Positions 12,701-21,549 of a stretch of DNA of 21,549 nucleotides are shown piece after piece. The first letter of the stretch is position 1. Every line of letters begins with the position of its first letter. Source of the DNA: Chromera velia (taxonomy: Eukaryota; Sar; Chromeraceae). The position numbers and the translations under genes were made by a program. The notes beneath the pieces were generated by a model. That model was not told the origin of the DNA and did no database searches. It saw only the letters and a program-made list of their open reading frames with translations. The DNA is taken from assembly GCA_018398765.1 (NCBI GenBank), contig JAHBMJ010002172.1, forward strand, positions 1 through 21,549, in the 5' to 3' direction.

Positions 12701-15269
12701 GTTGGGGCCTCAGCTTCATCCAGGGGAGGTGGGGGTGGGGCTCCGTTCAGGTCGACCCCGTTGGCTCTCAGGGTCCGTAGTAGGGACAGTGAGACTGCAT
12801 GCATTTGGACTCATTTGTTGTCTCTGAGTTTCATCAAGACGTACCTTGTTGCACTAATATTTTCAAAGAGCGACGAGATCTATTGATGAGTCTAAAGCGA
12901 AAGATATGGATTTAATCAAGGGAAAGGGTGAAAAAGAGAGGTGCTGGCTGTCTCTCCTGAAAGCAACATGAGAAGAATGCAAAAACCATAAAGGCCGTCC
13001 CCCAACCCCGGACAAACAAGGTAGAGAAGCTCACCGTCACTAAAAGGATGCAGAGCTGCCAACTCGACAGCAGTCCAGCCGTCTGCCGAGATCTGCAAGG
13101 AAACAAAAAAAACACTTAAGGTGTGAAGAGAGGTTAGGGCAAATCAAAAAGAGGGACGACAGGCTAAGCCACTTGAGAGAAAGAAGACGGCCCACTGCTG
13201 GAATAACGCCACGCAGAGAGCACTAAGTCTCTGAATGCGTGTTATTTCCGTTTTCATTCCCCTCCTGACTGACCTCAAACGGGTCTGCCCCGTGTCTCAA
13301 AAGGATTTCAACGATCTCGCACTCCCCTTCCCGCACAGCAATCAGAAGAGGTGTGTCCTCCCAAGCGCACCGCATGCAACTGTCGCTGGTTCCTTGTCGC
13401 TTCACCGGACTCGTCCCCGACGCCACCTGCTTCGCCCCCCCTTCATCCGCGATGGGGGTCTGTTCCTCTGGAAAAAAGGGGGAAGTGGGAGAAGAGGGGG
13501 GAGAGGCTGAGGCCTCATCTTCCCCCTCGTCTGCCTGCATGGTCCGACATCGACAGTCAGGCGGACACGCAACGCTGGCACCGAATCGGATCAAGCGGAG
13601 GAGGGAATCCGTCGCAGAGGACAGACAAGCAACGTGGACCGGCCCCAGGCCCCACTCATCTCTCTTCTCTAGTTCCTCTTTGTTCATCGCATCCTCTAGC
13701 AGTCTCATTCGGTTCTCTTCGTCTTGCTGCTGCTGCTGCTGTTGCGAGGAGGAAAGAGGAAGTTGCAGCCGCACACGAGAGGAGTTTGAGATCGGTTCTC
13801 CCCCTTCTTTCTGTCCCCCTGAATCAAAACGATTTTCCCTGACAATGCTGTGCAAAGTCCCTCGGACAAGCGAATGGCCGAGGAGGGCTGCAGCACGAGC
13901 ACAGAGATATTCCCGTCGGTCTCTTGCAACCGACACGCTCAAGTCTCTCATTCTTGCACTTCCTCTCTGACTGTGCGATGCTCTACCTCTTGAAGGCATC
14001 TCACACGCTTCCGTACTGCCCCCCTCCCCTCCTTCGTCGTCGTCACTCTTCTTTCGCAAGTCCCGCAGAACTGCTGTGACGGCGGCGGGCATTCCGACGG
14101 GAACCGAAATGCGCGCCGTGTCGACCAAAACGTCACCGGTGGACTTCCACCCCCGTTTTCTTCCTCCCACAGCGGCTCCACCAACCCCATCAGACTTCCC
14201 GGCAGCAGCAGAGGGACCGACCACTGCGGGGATCTGTGCCGCCCTTTCTCCCATGGGCCCCCGTCGCAGAAGCCCCAGGGCCAACGTGCGTCGACGCCCC
14301 TGTCTGGTCTCTCCAAACCTGTGCGATGCAGTTTTTTGGGATCCTGGGAGTTGCGTAAAGGACGCAGAAGGGCTGGAGACTGCCACTGAGTGTCGTTTGG
14401 AGGGCACCAGCCGTACCGTGTCTCTTCTGAAGGGCATGACCATCTGGTTGGCCACGAAGGTGGCGACGACAAACCTGATCGTGCTCATCCATTCCATCTT
14501 TTCCTCCTCTTCCTGCACGTGGCCACGTACGGCAAGAAGTAAATCGGAAAGTCAAAAACAAAACGCTATTAAATCAGCAGGACGCTTCAGGGACTTGAAA
14601 AGCTCCCGCAATGTAGACACAGAAAAGAGCGCAGCAAAATGACGCGGTGAGAGGAAAAGGTGAAAGAGGAAAAGGGAAGGAAATGGCAGGTAAAGAGTGT
14701 CCTTGGCTGAGACTGACGTCAAAACAAAAGTGAAGCACTTGCTTCTCATCTGCAATCTGGAAGCCAAACATTTCCACATTAGCCTTTACTTGTGCTGGAG
14801 AGTCGCAGAGCAGTAGATGTTTGTGAGGAATCGTCCTCTGCCACTTGAATTGGACTTTCACGGGACCGTCTGGGGCATTCCCACCAGCAAGCGAGCGAAC
14901 GGAATTGGCAGCAGACTGCATTGTGGCTTTGAAGGCGTTTTCCTTTTTGGGCTTTGGCACCTCTTCCGTGAGGAAAGAAGTGAGATCCTGATCAGGGGCT
15001 CTCTCTTTCTCTGACGATTTCGAAGTGCTCATCGGGTTCGTTAGAACCAGGCAGTCCGTGAAAGCGAAAAGATGCTGCGGGTTCAGTCTTTTTGTCTTGG
15101 GGTTCATTCTCAAAACTGGGCCATCTTTGATGAGGGTTCTCCTACAGGACTTGTCTCCCAAGAGAGGGCACTGGATGGCCACAATGTCTTCGAGGATCGG
15201 GTGCTGCACCGACTGGAACTTGATGGCAACACCCAGATCCACGCGTGGCGTGGAGCCACCCTCACTCAT
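8535..15269 (-). CDS. Gene B: PH - ankyrin repeat - FYVE zinc finger protein (11 exons)
   Basis: Exons: 15269-14739, 14512-13274, 13092-13035, 12794-12591, 12234-11521, 11218-11151, 10756-10658, 10326-10243, 9978-9895, 9616-8938, 8596-8535. All phases agree: 3822 nt, 1273 residues. Residues ~43-199 form a PH-like domain with a long charged insertion; the frame joins FGFQIADEKQ to EEEEKMEWMSTIRF (Trp185). Ankyrin repeats lie at ~462-491, 561-590, 591-627 and ~694-740; GADPFE|ISADGWTAVELAALH crosses an intron seamlessly. A seven-Gln run sits at 434-440. The FYVE finger (~893-970) keeps every signature: WVKD, CMTC (899-902), RRRHHCRRCG and RVCDPC (960-963). FYVE fingers bind PI3P, so an endosomal role is expected. 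The tail is Gly/Ser/Pro-rich, then a coiled coil (~1213-1265). The exon 6 donor is weak (GTTGCT); an alternative GTATGA at 11133 with a later acceptor also keeps the FYVE frame. ANKFY1 is similar but has BTB instead of PH. Confidence 0.85.
9641..9724. repeat. (AAAGAGAGGA)n and (AG)n simple repeat in gene B intron 9
   Basis: Three near-identical 10-bp units (9651-9680) pass into a pure AG run of about 32 bp (9683-9714). On the transcribed strand this is a TC-rich tract in the intron between the 9978-9895 and 9616-8938 exons. Confidence 0.85.
11474..11496. repeat. (CA)n microsatellite in gene B intron 5
   Basis: About ten CA units next to a CT-rich stretch, just inside the intron that splits the FYVE finger codon. 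On the transcribed strand it is (TG)n a few tens of bases after the donor GTCAGT. Confidence 0.85.
13724..13744 (-). repeat. CAG-type trinucleotide repeat encoding seven Gln in gene B
   Basis: Minus-strand codons CAA CAG CAG CAG CAG CAG CAA, coding residues 434-440 of the PH-ankyrin-FYVE protein, just upstream of the first ankyrin repeat. The run lies in a disordered Ser/Gln/Glu-rich linker and is likely length-polymorphic. Confidence 0.85.
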
Positions 15270-15945
15270 TGCGATTAAGTGGAGCGGTTTCTCCCTTGAC
15301 CAGCTGCACTCTGCTAATCCTTGAGGTCAGTCAGACCGATATGCTGATGTAGACGGCGGCATTGGTGCATGCGTTTGGAGCTTCGCTGTCTCAACGGACT
15401 CCCTACAGATTGGTCATGCCGGGCACTTGCGATGGTTGAATAAGCTTCTCCATCGGCCTGTCAGGTCAGCGACGTATCAATCGATCCACTCTGACAGCTG
15501 ATCTATATATATATATATAGGCTGCGACCTCGATCCGCATTCGATCCGCACCCTAGCTGCTTAAATTTACACTGCATGCATTTCAGAAGTCACTGCACAC
15601 GAGACACATTATTTTTTGGTGAGTGCCTTGGATTCCACGGGTCCATAGTTGAGGGGGTGGAGCCGAGGCCACGGCCGCGCGCGGCACCATGCAGTGTTTG
15701 ATCGCTATGCATTTTTTTTTTCTGGGGCCTAGCTCGTGCATGGACAGCAGCTAGAGACCTGCCCTCCGAGGTGTCGACGAGCTGCGCGCATGCACGGAGT
15801 GCCTGCATGCAAAGAGACTTTTGTCAACGTGTGTCCTCGTATATATATAGACGGTCAGAAGTGTGGTCAGAGCCCACAACAGTCCAAAAACTATCGAAAA
15901 ACGAAGAAGGTGCTGGATGCGCTGAACGTAATGAATCAGGGTACG
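15270..15945. promoter_or_regulatory. Divergent promoter region of genes B and C
   Basis: 676 bp between two start codons pointing away from each other. It contains (TA)8 at 15504-15519 and a second TA-box TATATATATA at 15840-15849, about 96 bp before the gene C ATG. TGCATGC-type palindromes occur at 15366-15372, 15573-15580 and 15804-15811, plus a CGCATGCA at about 15787. TGCATGCA resembles known ApiAP2 binding motifs of apicomplexans; that link is inferential here. No transcription start can be placed from sequence alone. Confidence 0.5.
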
Positions 15946-18591
15946 ATGGGGTGTGTGTCCAGTAACAGCAAAGAGGGCGTGGGGGGTCAGGGGGGAGACG
16001 GTGGACTGAAAGGACGAGAAGAGACCCCCCGCCCTGCCCGAAAAGAGAGGGAACGGCAACCCCAAGATGCTTCCCACCTTTTCACCCGCAAGAATGTTGA
16101 GGTTCATCTCGTTGGTGCGCGTAGGGAGGGACCCGGAGAGACGCTGAACATTCCGCTAGACCCTAGGAGACACGCCATCTCCGAGTTGGAAGAGATGGCG
16201 AGGGCGATGTGTGTACAGAAGGCGACGTGGTTCGAGGAGTTTGTGATTTGGAATGAAGGCAAGAGAGTGAACTCATCGTCAAGGAATGCGGTAGGGAAGC
16301 AGAAAATCGAGTTCTTTCTCGGGTGCTCCTTTTATGCGCGGGTAAGTTAGAAGAGGAAGGGTCTGAATGCTGGTGTTGATTTATTGATACCTAAAAGATG
16401 TATGTATCTTGGAGGAATTCCAATTCAGTCCGACGACCGTTCGCGTTTCGGTCGCAAAAGCCTTTGTTTCGACTGCGTGAGCTTGTTTCTTGAACTGTTC
16501 CATGCATCCGTTCGTACAGGGCTTGGTGGGAATACGTGACAAAACGGAATAAAAGATACGTTCATGGCAGCGGGTCCAGAGGAGAGTCACAGTATACTTC
16601 TTCTGAAAGCACGTACCACACACAGAGGGACGCAGGCAGACAGATCAGCAAACAAGTAGACAACCAATCAAAGAAGTAAGTAAGTAAGCAACCAAGCACG
16701 CCACAAGGACAGGGACGGGAGTGGAGAGAGACTTCATGCAGCTGCATGTTCTCTTCCTCTCATGCACACGATTCGTCACGACTTGCTTCCTTGAATGAAG
16801 TCAGGCTGAAGCCTTTCCAGAACATGCGAAAAATAATTCTGAGGTGGCTCAGAGATTGAGTCAATGGATTATCTCAAAGAAGCACCCGTGAATATGTGTG
16901 AATAAGAAATGCAGGTGAGTTTGGCAAAGCGTTCCTTTTTCGTGTACGAGCTGAAAGGAGAGGGTGGCAGTGGCAGTTTCCGCTGCTGGGAGCTTCAGTG
17001 GGAGGAGACTGCTCGTGTGGAAGTGGGTCCTGGGGAGACTGGGAGGGATTTGAAGAGAGCAGTTCGAAAAGCCTTGGGAAAGGGGGAGAAAGAGAATGAA
17101 GGAGAGGGTAAGTCAGGGAGGAAGCACAGGGTTCAGGAGACTGGTGGGATGACTGACTGAGTGAAAGTGCCACTTGATCTTTTCAGCCTCCTCCTCCTGC
17201 ACATCGCACGTTCCTTTCCACCTGCATTTCCAAGAGAGGAGACTTGAGTACTTCTGCGCCCCCCGCACGTCTGCTTTCCCACGCGCGTGCTCAACCTCCC
17301 GGTCACATTCGGGCCTGAAAAGGGAATGCATCCAGCGCATGCCTGTGTACTGTTCTGCACATTTTTCATTTTTGCGGGTTCCACGGAACATGTGTTAGTT
17401 ATGTGTGTGAACGCCTACACAACAATGCGCGCAGACAGCCTCTCTTGTGCGCATTCCCGTTCTTGCAGACCCCGCAGAACCAATGAAGAAGAACTCAGAG
17501 GGCAAAACAGACGACAAGGTGGAAGGAAGCGCGAAAAAGGAGGGTGCAGAGCCGTCGAGTTCGTTCTCTCTGTTCAGTTTTGACGGTCGAGAGATTTCAG
17601 ACAGTTCCAAAATGGCGGGGTTCGACCTGAAGCCCTCCAGCAGGTACCTGACCCTCTCTGCTGAGCACTGCAAGTTCTCTTTTGTGTCTGTGAAGACCCT
17701 TACTGGCAAGACGATCAGGGTGGAGGCAGGGGACGGGGACCTTGTCGAGACTGTGAGTCATCTGATCTGAGTGAGGAAGATTTCCTGTGTGGTTTCGTCA
17801 ATGCATGTAGTTGCGTGGCAGAACTTTCAGGCATGGGTCGTGGGAGACGCCTCTCCTTTTGGAAACTTGCTTGCATCTCCTGCAAGATCAGACAGGTGCA
17901 GACATGCATAGTCCCTTTCTGCGCAGCCCCAGAAGGGATAAAAGCGGTGTCTTGTGTGTGTCTGGTGCTCATTTTTTGCACACCTCTTTTGATTCTGCTC
18001 CTCTTTTCTGCCCTCAGTTGAAAGTGCGTATAGAGGAGAAGGAGGGCGTTCCGCCTGATCACCAACGACTTGTGGTCTCTCTGGAGGGCAAAGGGTCTGT
18101 CTCCCTGGAGGACGGCTGCACTCTGTCTGACTACATTGTACCCCGAAAGGGGGAGGGCAGGGACCCCACTGTGTACCTGGTCATGAGGCTGCGGGAGGGG
18201 CCCTCGGTCGGAGGGACCCAATTTGTTGACGTGAGGGGGAATCTGGAGAAGAGAGCGTTCAGCAGCAAGGCCCCCTATTGGAGACGGGTGGGGAAGGGCC
18301 TGAACATTCACGGCGTGTGCAGACGTTCGACGTGCAATGCTTTTGGGCGGGAGGTAGGAAAGTCGGGGGGGGGGTGACCATGGAGACTGTGTGTGTGCTG
18401 TTTTCTCGTCTGTAGCTAATGAGGGTGTACGTTGTGCCTGCAGCCGGAGTTGAATGGGGGGGGATCGTTTTCCATTTTTTCGATTCTGGGCCCTCTCAAT
18501 TTGCGTGTGGGAGGGAGATCAGTGGGTGTCTGCGTTTGCGTGTCTGTGTCTGAGTGCGTGCCTGCGCATCCGTGTGTGTGTGTGTCTGTGT

Positions 18592-18628
<37 letters not shown>

Positions 18629-19759
18629 TGAGAGAGAGAGAGAGAGGCCCATCGATCTGCCTCTTTACCCTTATGTCACTTACTTGTTCTCAAACGGTAG
18701 CAAATGTTTGCTGGTGCGAGATTTGGAGCTTTTGATGAGCACGTGCGGTTTTGCAGACAGCAAGGCGATGTTTACACCTTCGATCGCATCCTTCAATTGT
18801 CCCTAAGTGGAATGACGACTCTCACCAATTCTGAAAAAGCCAATGGAGTTATTGATCGAGGCGTGCTTGATTCTTGCGTTTCTCCTCATTTTCATTCTCT
18901 TCTTTTACCGACGAGACGCCTGCAGGTGATCATTCCGAAGGGCATGGACTCTTTTGACTTAATCCTCCAGTCCTCCGAGTGCTTCTGTCCCGCATGCGGT
19001 GGCTGGGTGGAACCAAAAACGTGCGGGTTCTTCGACTGCAGGTGGGAAGGGGAGGGGAGGGGAGGGGGGGCAGCATTCATTCCTAGTTCTCCAAAGAAAT
19101 CGTTGTTAACGTGCTTGGATGCAGATACAGAGCTCCTGCCTGAAACAAGTTTTTGTTGATCTATCTATCTGCAGGTGGACCCACGAGGCCATCTTCAGGG
19201 AGAGGGAAGGAGAGCGCCCGATGATGATTGGGGGTGAGTGCCGTGAGAAGTCCAGACAGCGATCGCACAGCATTTGTAGCACCACAGGAGGAAGAGCATG
19301 AATGCTCAGAAGAACAATTGGTTTGAGATGGGGTTCACGTGCACATGTCGATGGTCGTGTCGTCCATTTCCGCTTGCTTGTGTTGCAATGCTTTCCCTTC
19401 CGGTACTTCCGGAAGTAGATTGCTTTCTTGTGGAGACCATTCTTTGAAAGCGTTTGCAAGCGCATGGCCTGCGTGCAGGCGAGTGGCAGGATGCGTTCTC
19501 GGACGCCTACCAGAAGTTCAAGAAAGGCACCGAGTCCCTCTCCTACATTCGTCTCGTCTTCTTCCTCCAGGACCTGGAAGAGAGGGACCTCTGCGCCGTC
19601 TGTCTGGAGAGCCTGGCGTCGGACGGACAGCCAAATCTCCAGACAGCCTGCACCCCTTTCTCATGCGAACGCCACAAGTTTCATCTGAAGTGCATCAGCT
19701 CGTGGCTGGCTCAAGGGCGGACCTGCCCTGTCTGCAGGGCCCCGGCAGATGCTCGCTGA
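15946..19759 (+). CDS. Gene C: triple ubiquitin-like, Cys-rich module, RING protein; putative E3 ligase (7 exons)
   Basis: Exons: 15946-16341, 16915-17107, 17469-17752, 18018-18353, 18926-19041, 19175-19233, 19479-19759; 1665 nt, 554 residues, all phases agree. ATG 15946 was chosen because it gives MGCVSSNSK, a myristoylation/palmitoylation motif; in-frame ATGs exist upstream (15931, 15790, 15736). A weak ubiquitin-like fold lies at ~50-135. A second at ~142-262 is split by a charged linker (VYELKG... then FSLFSFDGREISDSSKMAG). The third (~263-352) is unmistakable: VKTLTGKTIRVE, then KVRIEEKEGVPPDHQRLV and MRLREG, without the Gly-Gly end, so it is not processed. Next comes APYWRRVGKGLNIHGVC...C (C392, C397), then CPAC (424-427), TCGFFDC (436-441) and W, a zinc-type module familiar from protist ubiquitin-family proteins. 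The C-terminal RING has C500, C503, C524, H527, H530, C533, C544 and C547, with CxxH spacing one residue longer than usual. Most likely a membrane-tethered ubiquitin ligase. Confidence 0.88.
18571..18646. repeat. (TG)n-(GA)n compound microsatellite in gene C intron 4
   Basis: About 55 bp of TG repeats interrupted by two TCTG units, followed by about 18 bp of GA. It lies in the 572-bp intron between the exons ending CNAFGRE and starting VIIPKG. Confidence 0.9.
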
Positions 19760-19824: not shown

Positions 19825-21117
19825 CTAAGCCAGGTGGAGCCGAGCTCCTGGCAGTCCATGAGCATGCACGCCTTGTCGAGATCCTAGCTCCATCAAAGAA
19901 GAGACAGTAGGTTTAACGAAGACTGATTCACTGTGGGTGAATGATCAACTGCATTCAGAAGGCAGCTTGAATCTGAAAGGGGAAATTCAAAAGGCACTGT
20001 GAGGCAGACAATATGACTGTACTTGCAGCGCAGGACCTGGTACACGAAAAAAGAAATACAAACGAGTTAGATATGTATAGATCAGATTTTCTTTTTTTTT
20101 TTCTCTTCTTCCATGCTTACATGCAAGCGTGTCGCTAGGCGTGTCGCCGACTAGGCTTACTCTGCAACTTGCCAGGAGGCCCCTAGGGAGGCCCAGGATT
20201 TTACATAATTTTAGGCTAGGATTTTCGCGGATTTTTTCGAATTTGAGCTAAAATCTTAGCAGAAAATGTATATAGGATTTTTACTAAGAATCTAGCAAAC
20301 TGTTTCAAAAGTTAGCTAGTATTCCATATCTTAAAGTTCACTAAAAGGCTAGTAAAAGCCTATATTAAATAGCTAAAATCCTATAAAATCTGTTAAATCC
20401 TGTACACTCCACTAGGATTTTAAGTTTTTGAAATCTTATAAATTCTTTAATAGTTCAAATCCCATGAAAGATCCCACTAACTAGCCCACTAATAGCTTAA
20501 AATTCTGTAAAGGCTATAGCAGTACATGTGGGGTCTAGTATGCTAGGGTATATTTGTTCTAATATAGTTTTATTATATATGCGTACAATCAGAGTAATAT
20601 ATATATTGAACGTAACATAAGGGCCATGATAAGGCGTCTTAGCCACTACTAGACTAGCTACTAGACTAGCTACTGTAATAGAAATCATAAAACAGGGGAG
20701 GGTGTCCGAGAAGGGAAGGCGGCGTGTAAAGCAAATTTTGGCAAAGTACTAGCATTGGTTCCGTAACGATGGAGGTGGCGCTATATGAAGTAGCTTACCA
20801 TAGATAGCAGACTATGTCTCATAAATCAGCATCATTCATGCTCAAGCATCAAAGGTGTTTAATCACGGAATTTATTTATTCACTAGTTACTCATTTTAAA
20901 AGTAATATAATCAGGAATATATTGCTAAATTAATTAAGGGGGGGTCCGGGGGGCGGGGCCGCCCAGGCTACATTTTTGATTTTTTTTTAAAAATACAGTT
21001 TATGACTATAAAAAATTGGTTTTGAAAAAGATAAACAGGGGCTATCTAGCTGTTAGGCACTGTTAATAGGCAGTAGTGTAACAGTTACTATACTAGACTG
21101 TGTTACAGTGTTACTAG
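19825..21117. other. AT-rich repetitive intergenic DNA
   Basis: No gene seen. A GC-rich lead (20120-20200, with GCTAGGCG and CCCCTAGGGAGG) gives way to AT-rich DNA. In it, TAGGATTTT (20212, 20273, 20412) and its inverse AAAATCCTA (about 20375) recur. A 12-bp unit ACTAGACTAGCT is tandemly doubled at 20648-20671. A short G-rich patch lies at 20939-20968. The 21000-21117 part precedes the reverse-transcriptase ORF and may be its 5' UTR. Confidence 0.5.
20210..20425. repeat. Interspersed and inverted TAGGATTTT motifs
   Basis: GGCTAGGATTTT at 20210 and ACTAGGATTTTA near 20409 face AGCTAAAATCCTATA near 20371. These are dispersed sub-repeats on both strands inside an AT-rich block. Probably the body of an uncharacterised repeat; its ends could not be fixed. 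Confidence 0.45.
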
Positions 21118-21135
21118 AATTTTATAAATCAGAAA

Positions 21136-21549
21136 ATGGGAAGAAAATCTCGTGGGCGTCATGCATTTGGGCGAGAGATTGTGTGGCTGAAAGCAAAATC
21201 GTTTAGAGACGGGCACCCTAGACAGCTCTCTGAACTGAAGTGGCGCCCACTGGTATCGTATGCGAGGCACGCATGGAGAAAGCCCTTTTCGATTGTGTAT
21301 CGGTTATTGAATGGATTGCTTTCCACTTTAAGTCCGCATGCGACCTTGTTTTCACCGTTTACTTTTATGCAAGACATCGGAAAATTTAATGGGGGGTCGG
21401 GAGATATCGAATGCGCCCATTTTACTGCTGTTCGGGGAAGGATGTTGCCGTCTGTTTCGCATTTTAGTCAGATCTTCGTTCATGTCGAGGACATTAAGAA
21501 CTTTTATCCTTCAATTCCCCGAGCATTGGTTCTTCATTTACTTTCTTGT
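21136..21549 (+). CDS. Reverse-transcriptase ORF of a retroelement, 5' part, cut by window edge
   Basis: The frame opens after TAG at 21115-21117, has its first ATG at 21136 and stays open for 138 codons to the end of the window. Near residue 36 it reads WRPLVSYARH, like the RPxxS motif at the start of many reverse-transcriptase domains. This is followed by RLLNGLL...LFSPFTFMQDIGKFN. At 117-128 it reads VEDIKNFYPSIP, matching motif A, with D119 as the likely first catalytic aspartate. Motifs B to E would lie beyond the right edge. The lineage (Penelope-like, LINE or another protist family) cannot be decided from this part. The upstream AT-rich DNA may be the element's 5' end. It may or may not be the same family as the LINE remnant at 1092-1361, since no shared segment is available to compare. 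Confidence 0.65.
   Translation, partial: MGRKSRGRHAFGREIVWLKAKSFRDGHPRQLSELKWRPLVSYARHAWRKPFSIVYRLLNGLLSTLSPHATLFSPFTFMQDIGKFNGGSGDIECAHFTAVRGRMLPSVSHFSQIFVHVEDIKNFYPSIPRALVLHLLSC

Follow-up and report, generated by a model that had tools for sequence, protein, structure and literature searches.

Gene Structure at the Locus

The window (the whole 21,549-nt stretch of Chromera velia DNA that was analysed) was found to carry on its plus strand a gene with an ATG at 15946 and a stop at 19759, the spliced product of which is 554 aa long with an unbroken frame (Table 1). All six introns are of the GT-AG type and the frame is kept across all seven exons. Judged by this reconstruction, the seven-exon gene at 15946-19759 is real, in agreement with the coordinates and exon number given in a preliminary description of this DNA. 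That description had also placed an MGCVSS start, a ubiquitin-like region, a Cys-rich module and a RING finger in this order within one protein; the order was recovered here, and it recurs in a paralog on contig C1155. The exon 2/3 boundary (the 5' end of exon 3) is the least certain, because it is located in a stretch absent from the paralog. Pfam matches were taken at E<=1 for the whole window protein and at E<=10 for separate pieces, with HMMER filters that drop most weak matches.

Table 1. Features of the window gene, its paralog and possible module relatives (residues are those of the window protein).
Feature	Position	Strand	Remarks
Upstream in-frame ATG	15931..15933	+	Adds MNQGT ahead of MGCVSS; would bury the myristoylation site
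Exon 1	15946..16341	+	Start ATG, lipidation motif, linker, putative ubiquitin-like domain 1
Exon 2	16915..17107	+	5' portion of ubiquitin-like domain 2; GT-AG; resembles paralog domain 2
Exon 3	17469..17752	+	Lys/Glu-rich linker, remainder of domain 2, initial strands of domain 3 (KTLTGKT)
Exon 4	18018..18353	+	Remainder of domain 3 (LREG end, without GG), first half of Cys-rich module
Exon 5	18926..19041	+	Second half of Cys-rich module (CPAC ... CGFFDC)
Exon 6	19175..19233	+	Cys-rich module region continues
Exon 7	19479..19759	+	Conserved post-module segment, RING-H2 (19589-19741), stop
MGCVSSNS lipidation motif	15946-15969	+	Residues 1-8
Putative ubiquitin-like domain 1	residues 49-133		Extends one codon into exon 2
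Ubiquitin-like domain 2	residues 135-263		Contains a long Lys/Glu-rich insert
Ubiquitin-like domain 3	residues 268-352
Cys-rich module region	residues 357-495
RING	residues 499-549
Paralog exons	L001 399-1037 and 1351-2100 (C1155)		One intron, 462 aa
Paralog intron	L001 1038-1350		GTCAGT...CAG
Possible third module ORF	L012 1222-2109 (C829)	-	Five of seven Cys aligned, E 0.24
Broken module relative	L029 4873-5117 (CP058704.1, Parachlamydiaceae MAG)	-	Two frames

A Paralog in the Host Genome

The host genome (177.8 Mb, 4040 contigs) was searched with the module plus RING, which yielded 13 matches with E<=10. One of these is on C1155, four are on the window contig, seven cover the RING end only and one, on C829, is in the module region. 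The C1155 match has an E value of 6.1e-70, with 53% identity over module plus RING. Of three splice choices that keep the frame of this gene, we adopted that whose donor fits best and whose junction matches the window gene. The resulting intron and the third intron of the window gene interrupt domain 3 at an identical phase-0 position (...ET|LK and ...LT|LK), and Pfam reports two ubiquitin stretches plus a RING in the paralog.

Identical amino acids were found at 194/446 aligned codons of the two genes, 54/175 in the N-terminal part and 140/271 from domain 3 onward. The mismatches by codon position (189/153/276), together with a dN of 0.54 and a dS of 2.46 (NG86; dS saturated), fit two protein-coding genes that selection has maintained. 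The shared domain order, the identity over module plus RING and the match between the first exons (E 7.7e-9) indicate that the recurrence of the layout in the paralog is more than chance. Among the matches listed in three genome searches (13, 5 and 12 matches) there was no further gene with the full layout, although a missing match here does not prove absence.

RING Finger

The RING finger claimed for the C-terminus was confirmed as a canonical RING-H2, with Pfam matches at residues 499-548 (zf-rbx1, E 2.6e-8; zf-RING_2, E 5.7e-8). The ligand pattern C3H2C3 (C-C-C-H-H-C-C-C) is complete in both genes, all eight ligands being present at window residues 500-548 and paralog residues 412-454, and at least one Pfam RING family is above its cut-off in each protein. 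The window RING has CAVC, a Trp preceding CPVC and an Arg after CPVC. Both paralogs thus keep the hydrophobic residue of CxVC, the Trp and the Arg of CPxCR; in active RING ligases, such positions contact the E2 and the Arg supplies the linchpin. The window protein is therefore a probable ubiquitin ligase by sequence. As for features of RBR ligases, it has one RING only, and no IBR match was obtained with Pfam at E<=1.

Ubiquitin-Like Domains

Three ubiquitin-like folds had been proposed ahead of the module, and they fared differently. Domain 3 is matched by Pfam ubiquitin (PF00240) at residues 269-330 with an E value of 1.8e-10 (40.9 bits against a cut-off of 25.4). In alignment, Leu8 and Val70 of the ubiquitin hydrophobic patch are retained, and position 44 of the patch is a Val. 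These patch residues, and the fact that the candidate ubiquitin-like domains with their inserts cover about half of the protein, would suit a ubiquitin scaffold or receptor tethered to a membrane. Its ubiquitin-like domains would do most of the work by recruiting the proteasome, Cdc48 or autophagy factors, while its RING would mainly dimerise or bind E2 without transfer. However, all canonical RING ligands and the linchpin Arg are kept in both paralogs, which would be unexpected were transfer dispensable, and we consider a scaffold unlikely compared with a ligase.

In the window protein, domain 3 terminates in RLREG in place of the RLRGG of conjugatable or cleavable ubiquitin, so that by known rules neither its release nor its conjugation as ubiquitin would be expected. 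The corresponding domain of the paralog has an intact RLRGG followed by HIPP, so that a cleavable version is possible there. It is conceivable, if quite improbable, that the paralogs form a permanent and releasable pair: a deubiquitinase could cut the paralog at RLRGG, freeing the RING half while the acylated half stays, and the window copy with RLREG would stay tethered. Were this so, ubiquitin itself would be the built-in cleavable hinge of a ligase.

Domain 2 was recognized through the paralog. Alone, paralog domain 2 is matched by Pfam ubiquitin at E 3.6e-9 (36.7 bits against a cut-off of 25.4), and hhalign gave 94% for it against a ubiquitin set from which it had been excluded. Window domain 2 alone had no Pfam ubiquitin match at E<=10 and an hhalign probability of 1.6, but in shuffle tests it scored z 4.4 against ubiquitin and z 6.0 against paralog domain 2, with 0/500 shuffles as high in either comparison. 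Against paralog domain 3 its score was z 0.85 (89/500 shuffles as high). Shuffle rows from a copy of window domain 2 with its inserts removed are biased and were left out of the counts, as was an hhalign comparison of the domain 2 pair with a set that included paralog domain 2, which is circular. Since paralog domain 2 is matched at this E value and window domain 2 lies above all shuffles, at least two ubiquitin-like domains are likely.

Domain 1 is matched between the genes, the first exon of the paralog aligning with exon 1 of the window gene in the genome search (E 7.7e-9). It has no Pfam ubiquitin match at E<=10, and hhalign gave ~0.2 against both ubiquitin and domain 2. Paralog domain 1 scored z 5.1 against paralog domain 2, with 0/500 shuffles and 0/904 segments of real proteins as high; as fifteen domain pairs were compared in the shuffle tests, this single strong score needs caution, and BLASTP aligned just 7/18 residues of the two. 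The likeness of paralog domain 1 to ubiquitin is modest (13/500 shuffles and 89/904 real segments as high), and nothing was seen against the two domains 3 (293/500 and 185/500 shuffles as high). Window domain 1 was likewise without signal against any of four comparison domains, 110 to 256 of 500 shuffles and 318/904 and 535/904 segments being as high; the counts of 110/500 and 318/904 belong to the comparison with paralog domain 2. A single-sequence structure model of domain 1 (16081-16341) is helical with low confidence (pLDDT 57.7, pTM 0.34) and is regarded as uninformative, not as a sign against a beta-grasp fold. A profile search of the PDB with domain 1 returned a single match, an antibody chain, which was rejected as a relative at E 0.28.

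Two of the three proposed folds are thus supported, domain 3 directly and domain 2 via the paralog, and domain 1, for which one internal-repeat score speaks, is a possible third. A plain RING ligase having just one ubiquitin-like domain, with other folds or little order in segments 1 and 2, would fit the one ubiquitin stretch that Pfam reports in the whole window protein as well as the lack of Pfam or profile matches for domain 1 and for window domain 2 alone. It is nevertheless highly improbable given that paralog domain 2 belongs by itself to the ubiquitin family and that its window counterpart exceeds 500/500 shuffles whether compared with ubiquitin or with paralog domain 2.

Cysteine-Rich Module

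A Cys-rich module between the ubiquitin-like domains and the RING, as previously noted, is indeed present, and it is 55% identical to that of the paralog over 139 columns. The preliminary description had likened it to a poorly characterised protist family; outside the two paralogs, the evidence for relatives is slight and consists of a possible module on C829 and a broken one in a Parachlamydiaceae genome. The Cys residues invariant between the paralogs are at alignment positions 36, 41, 66, 68, 71, 80 and 85. Their spacing resembles that of a CX4C/CPxC zinc ribbon, and the module would presumably bind zinc. It has no Pfam family match at E<=10. A search of NCBIfam for relatives gave nothing but deacetylase matches far under the cut-off. 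A PDB profile search with the module gave two matches, the best at E 0.32, which were not accepted.

The ORF on C829 keeps Cys 36, 41, 68, 71 and 85 of the module alignment and has no Pfam ubiquitin or RING match. It was missing from the five matches of the follow-up genome search and, when used as query, recovered no more than itself and a single weak locus. In view of its weak E value and these follow-up searches it is considered a possible member only.

In prokaryote genomes, 238 stretches were obtained by alignment search, with none confirmed, and seven by DNA-pattern search, one of which was accepted (L029, in a Parachlamydiaceae MAG). Its stretch WRE..PGLNMEGTCTNEKCEA has tblastn E values of 9e-6 (paralog) and 4e-4 (window module), both of which are flattered because the eight target loci had been picked by pattern. 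Directly behind it, in another frame and outside the search pattern, follows KGFVTFEL...CCPMC...FWDCDF (E 0.65 alone). The two frames may reflect either a broken copy or indels in the assembly. Parachlamydiaceae live in amoebae. Near this module, pieces appear ubiquitin-like by eye; Pfam gives them no support. In viral contigs, protein or alignment searches yielded 3 and 18 candidate stretches, with none confirmed, and DNA patterns yielded 1, 0 and 12 stretches. The best viral pattern stretches, with tblastn E values of 0.074 and 0.17, were not accepted.

Translation Start and Predicted N-Terminal Lipidation

The MGCVSSNS start of the window protein fits a PROSITE-style N-myristoylation pattern (M-G-x-x-x-[S/T..]). 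The paralog start, MGGTLS, also fits M-G-x-x-x-S; beyond this motif the N-terminus of the paralog is unlike that of the window protein. Three matches to N-myristoyltransferase were found in the host genome. The highest 19-residue Kyte-Doolittle averages are 0.86 for the window protein and 1.33 for the paralog, so that an obvious transmembrane helix is lacking in both. Cys3 is found in the window copy only, the paralog reading MGG, and dual acylation is therefore not conserved.

An ATG at 15931 lies five codons (15 nt) 5' of that at 15946, in frame and without an intervening stop, and the open frame of the window gene reaches back to 15733. If 15931 is included in the transcript, a scanning ribosome would meet it first. 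Use of this start or one farther upstream would make MGCVSS internal and the product a soluble RING ligase without an anchor. The start contexts are G at -3 and A at +4 for ATG 15931, against A at -3 and G at +4 for ATG 15946; with its -3 G, the context of ATG 15931 is acceptable. The window sequence by itself is thus compatible with an upstream start, which the preliminary description had named as a refuting outcome. In the paralog, the stretch from the preceding in-frame stop to MGGTLS contains no Met. With MGGTLS as the first in-frame Met of the paralog, the MGCVSS start is favoured over ATG 15931; this argues against the upstream start without being proof, and the remaining N-termini differ. 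A soluble ligase is accordingly possible yet rather unlikely. An out-of-frame ATG at 15917, just 5' of the MGCVSS start, opens an upstream frame of two residues.

The preliminary description had placed a lipid-anchored ligase on membranes. The motif in both genes and the N-myristoyltransferase matches speak for this, and the in-frame ATG at 15931 speaks against it. A lipid anchor on the window protein is predicted and probable.

Proposed Function and Comparison with Known Systems

The reading preferred here, to which we give a probability of roughly 0.6, is that the product of the window gene is a RING-H2 E3 ligase tethered at the cytosolic face of a membrane; its lipidation, zinc binding, activity and domain roles are all predicted. 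N-myristoylation of Gly2 would provide the hold on the membrane, with Cys3 possibly palmitoylated, and the C-terminal RING would recruit and activate a charged E2. Next to the RING, the Cys module with its zinc-ribbon-like spacing (CX4C ... CPxC ...) and the segment that follows it would in all likelihood bind the substrate or the E2 or bring them into position, and the ubiquitin-like domains may be fixed parts of the chain that are not conjugated and serve in docking or regulation.

RING ligases tethered by lipid and ligases combining a ubiquitin-like domain, a zinc module and a RING are both already known kinds. By analogy, the nearest working model for the window protein would be ZNRF2, an N-myristoylated ligase with a UBZ zinc finger and a RING, of which a Gly2 mutant loses membrane partners (PMC4889327). 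In common with ZNRF1 and ZNRF2, the window protein has an N-terminal myristoylation motif and a putative zinc module ahead of a C-terminal RING. However, its Cys module is without a Pfam match at E<=10, so that Pfam lends no support to membership of the ZNRF family; furthermore, the legend on ZNRF2 names UBZ and RING only and no ubiquitin-like domains (PMC4889327).

The nearest domain order is that of RBBP6/Mpe1, RBBP6 having a ubiquitin-like domain (DWNN), a zinc knuckle and a RING in this sequence (PMC1360078). The window protein differs in having two or three ubiquitin-like domains, one of them near ubiquitin itself, plus the lipid motif, and RBBP6 is splicing-associated. Pfam contains models of both DWNN and the CCHC zinc knuckle; because neither was among the matches of the whole window protein (E<=1) or its pieces (E<=10), the window protein is not regarded as an RBBP6 member.

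Parkin, HOIL-1L and UHRF1 are Ubl-containing RING-type ligases, and the window protein resembles them in combining a ubiquitin-like domain and a RING within one chain, whereas IBR, NZF and SRA are absent from its Pfam matches. RNF11, MGRN1/LUL and NEURL1 are lipidated RING ligases, NEURL1 reportedly being N-myristoylated. They share with the proposed protein the tethering of a RING ligase via an N-terminal acyl group but have other associated domains. Among the open-licence literature matches listed, there was no report of a lipid motif combined with ubiquitin-like domains, a zinc module and a RING, and no description of the window protein or its Cys module.

If the membrane-anchored reading is right, an acylated tandem ubiquitin-like chain with a Cys-rich module and a RING would be this lineage's own route for placing a ubiquitin ligase on membranes. 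The module is unmatched in Pfam and recurs in the paralog, and a broken relative occurs in a Parachlamydiaceae genome; naming and testing the module would give a function to a module that annotation passes over.

Neighboring Open Reading Frames

A divergent open frame is located at 14577-15269 on the minus strand, ~0.7 kb from the ATG of the window gene, with a sub-threshold match to the BUD3 PH domain (E 0.053). Another, at 21118-21549 on the plus strand, runs off the end of the window and has no Pfam match at E<=1; by eye, its stretch VEDIKNFYPSIP resembles reverse transcriptase. This latter frame sits in an AT-rich block, the GC content being 0.37-0.40 in 20001-21500.
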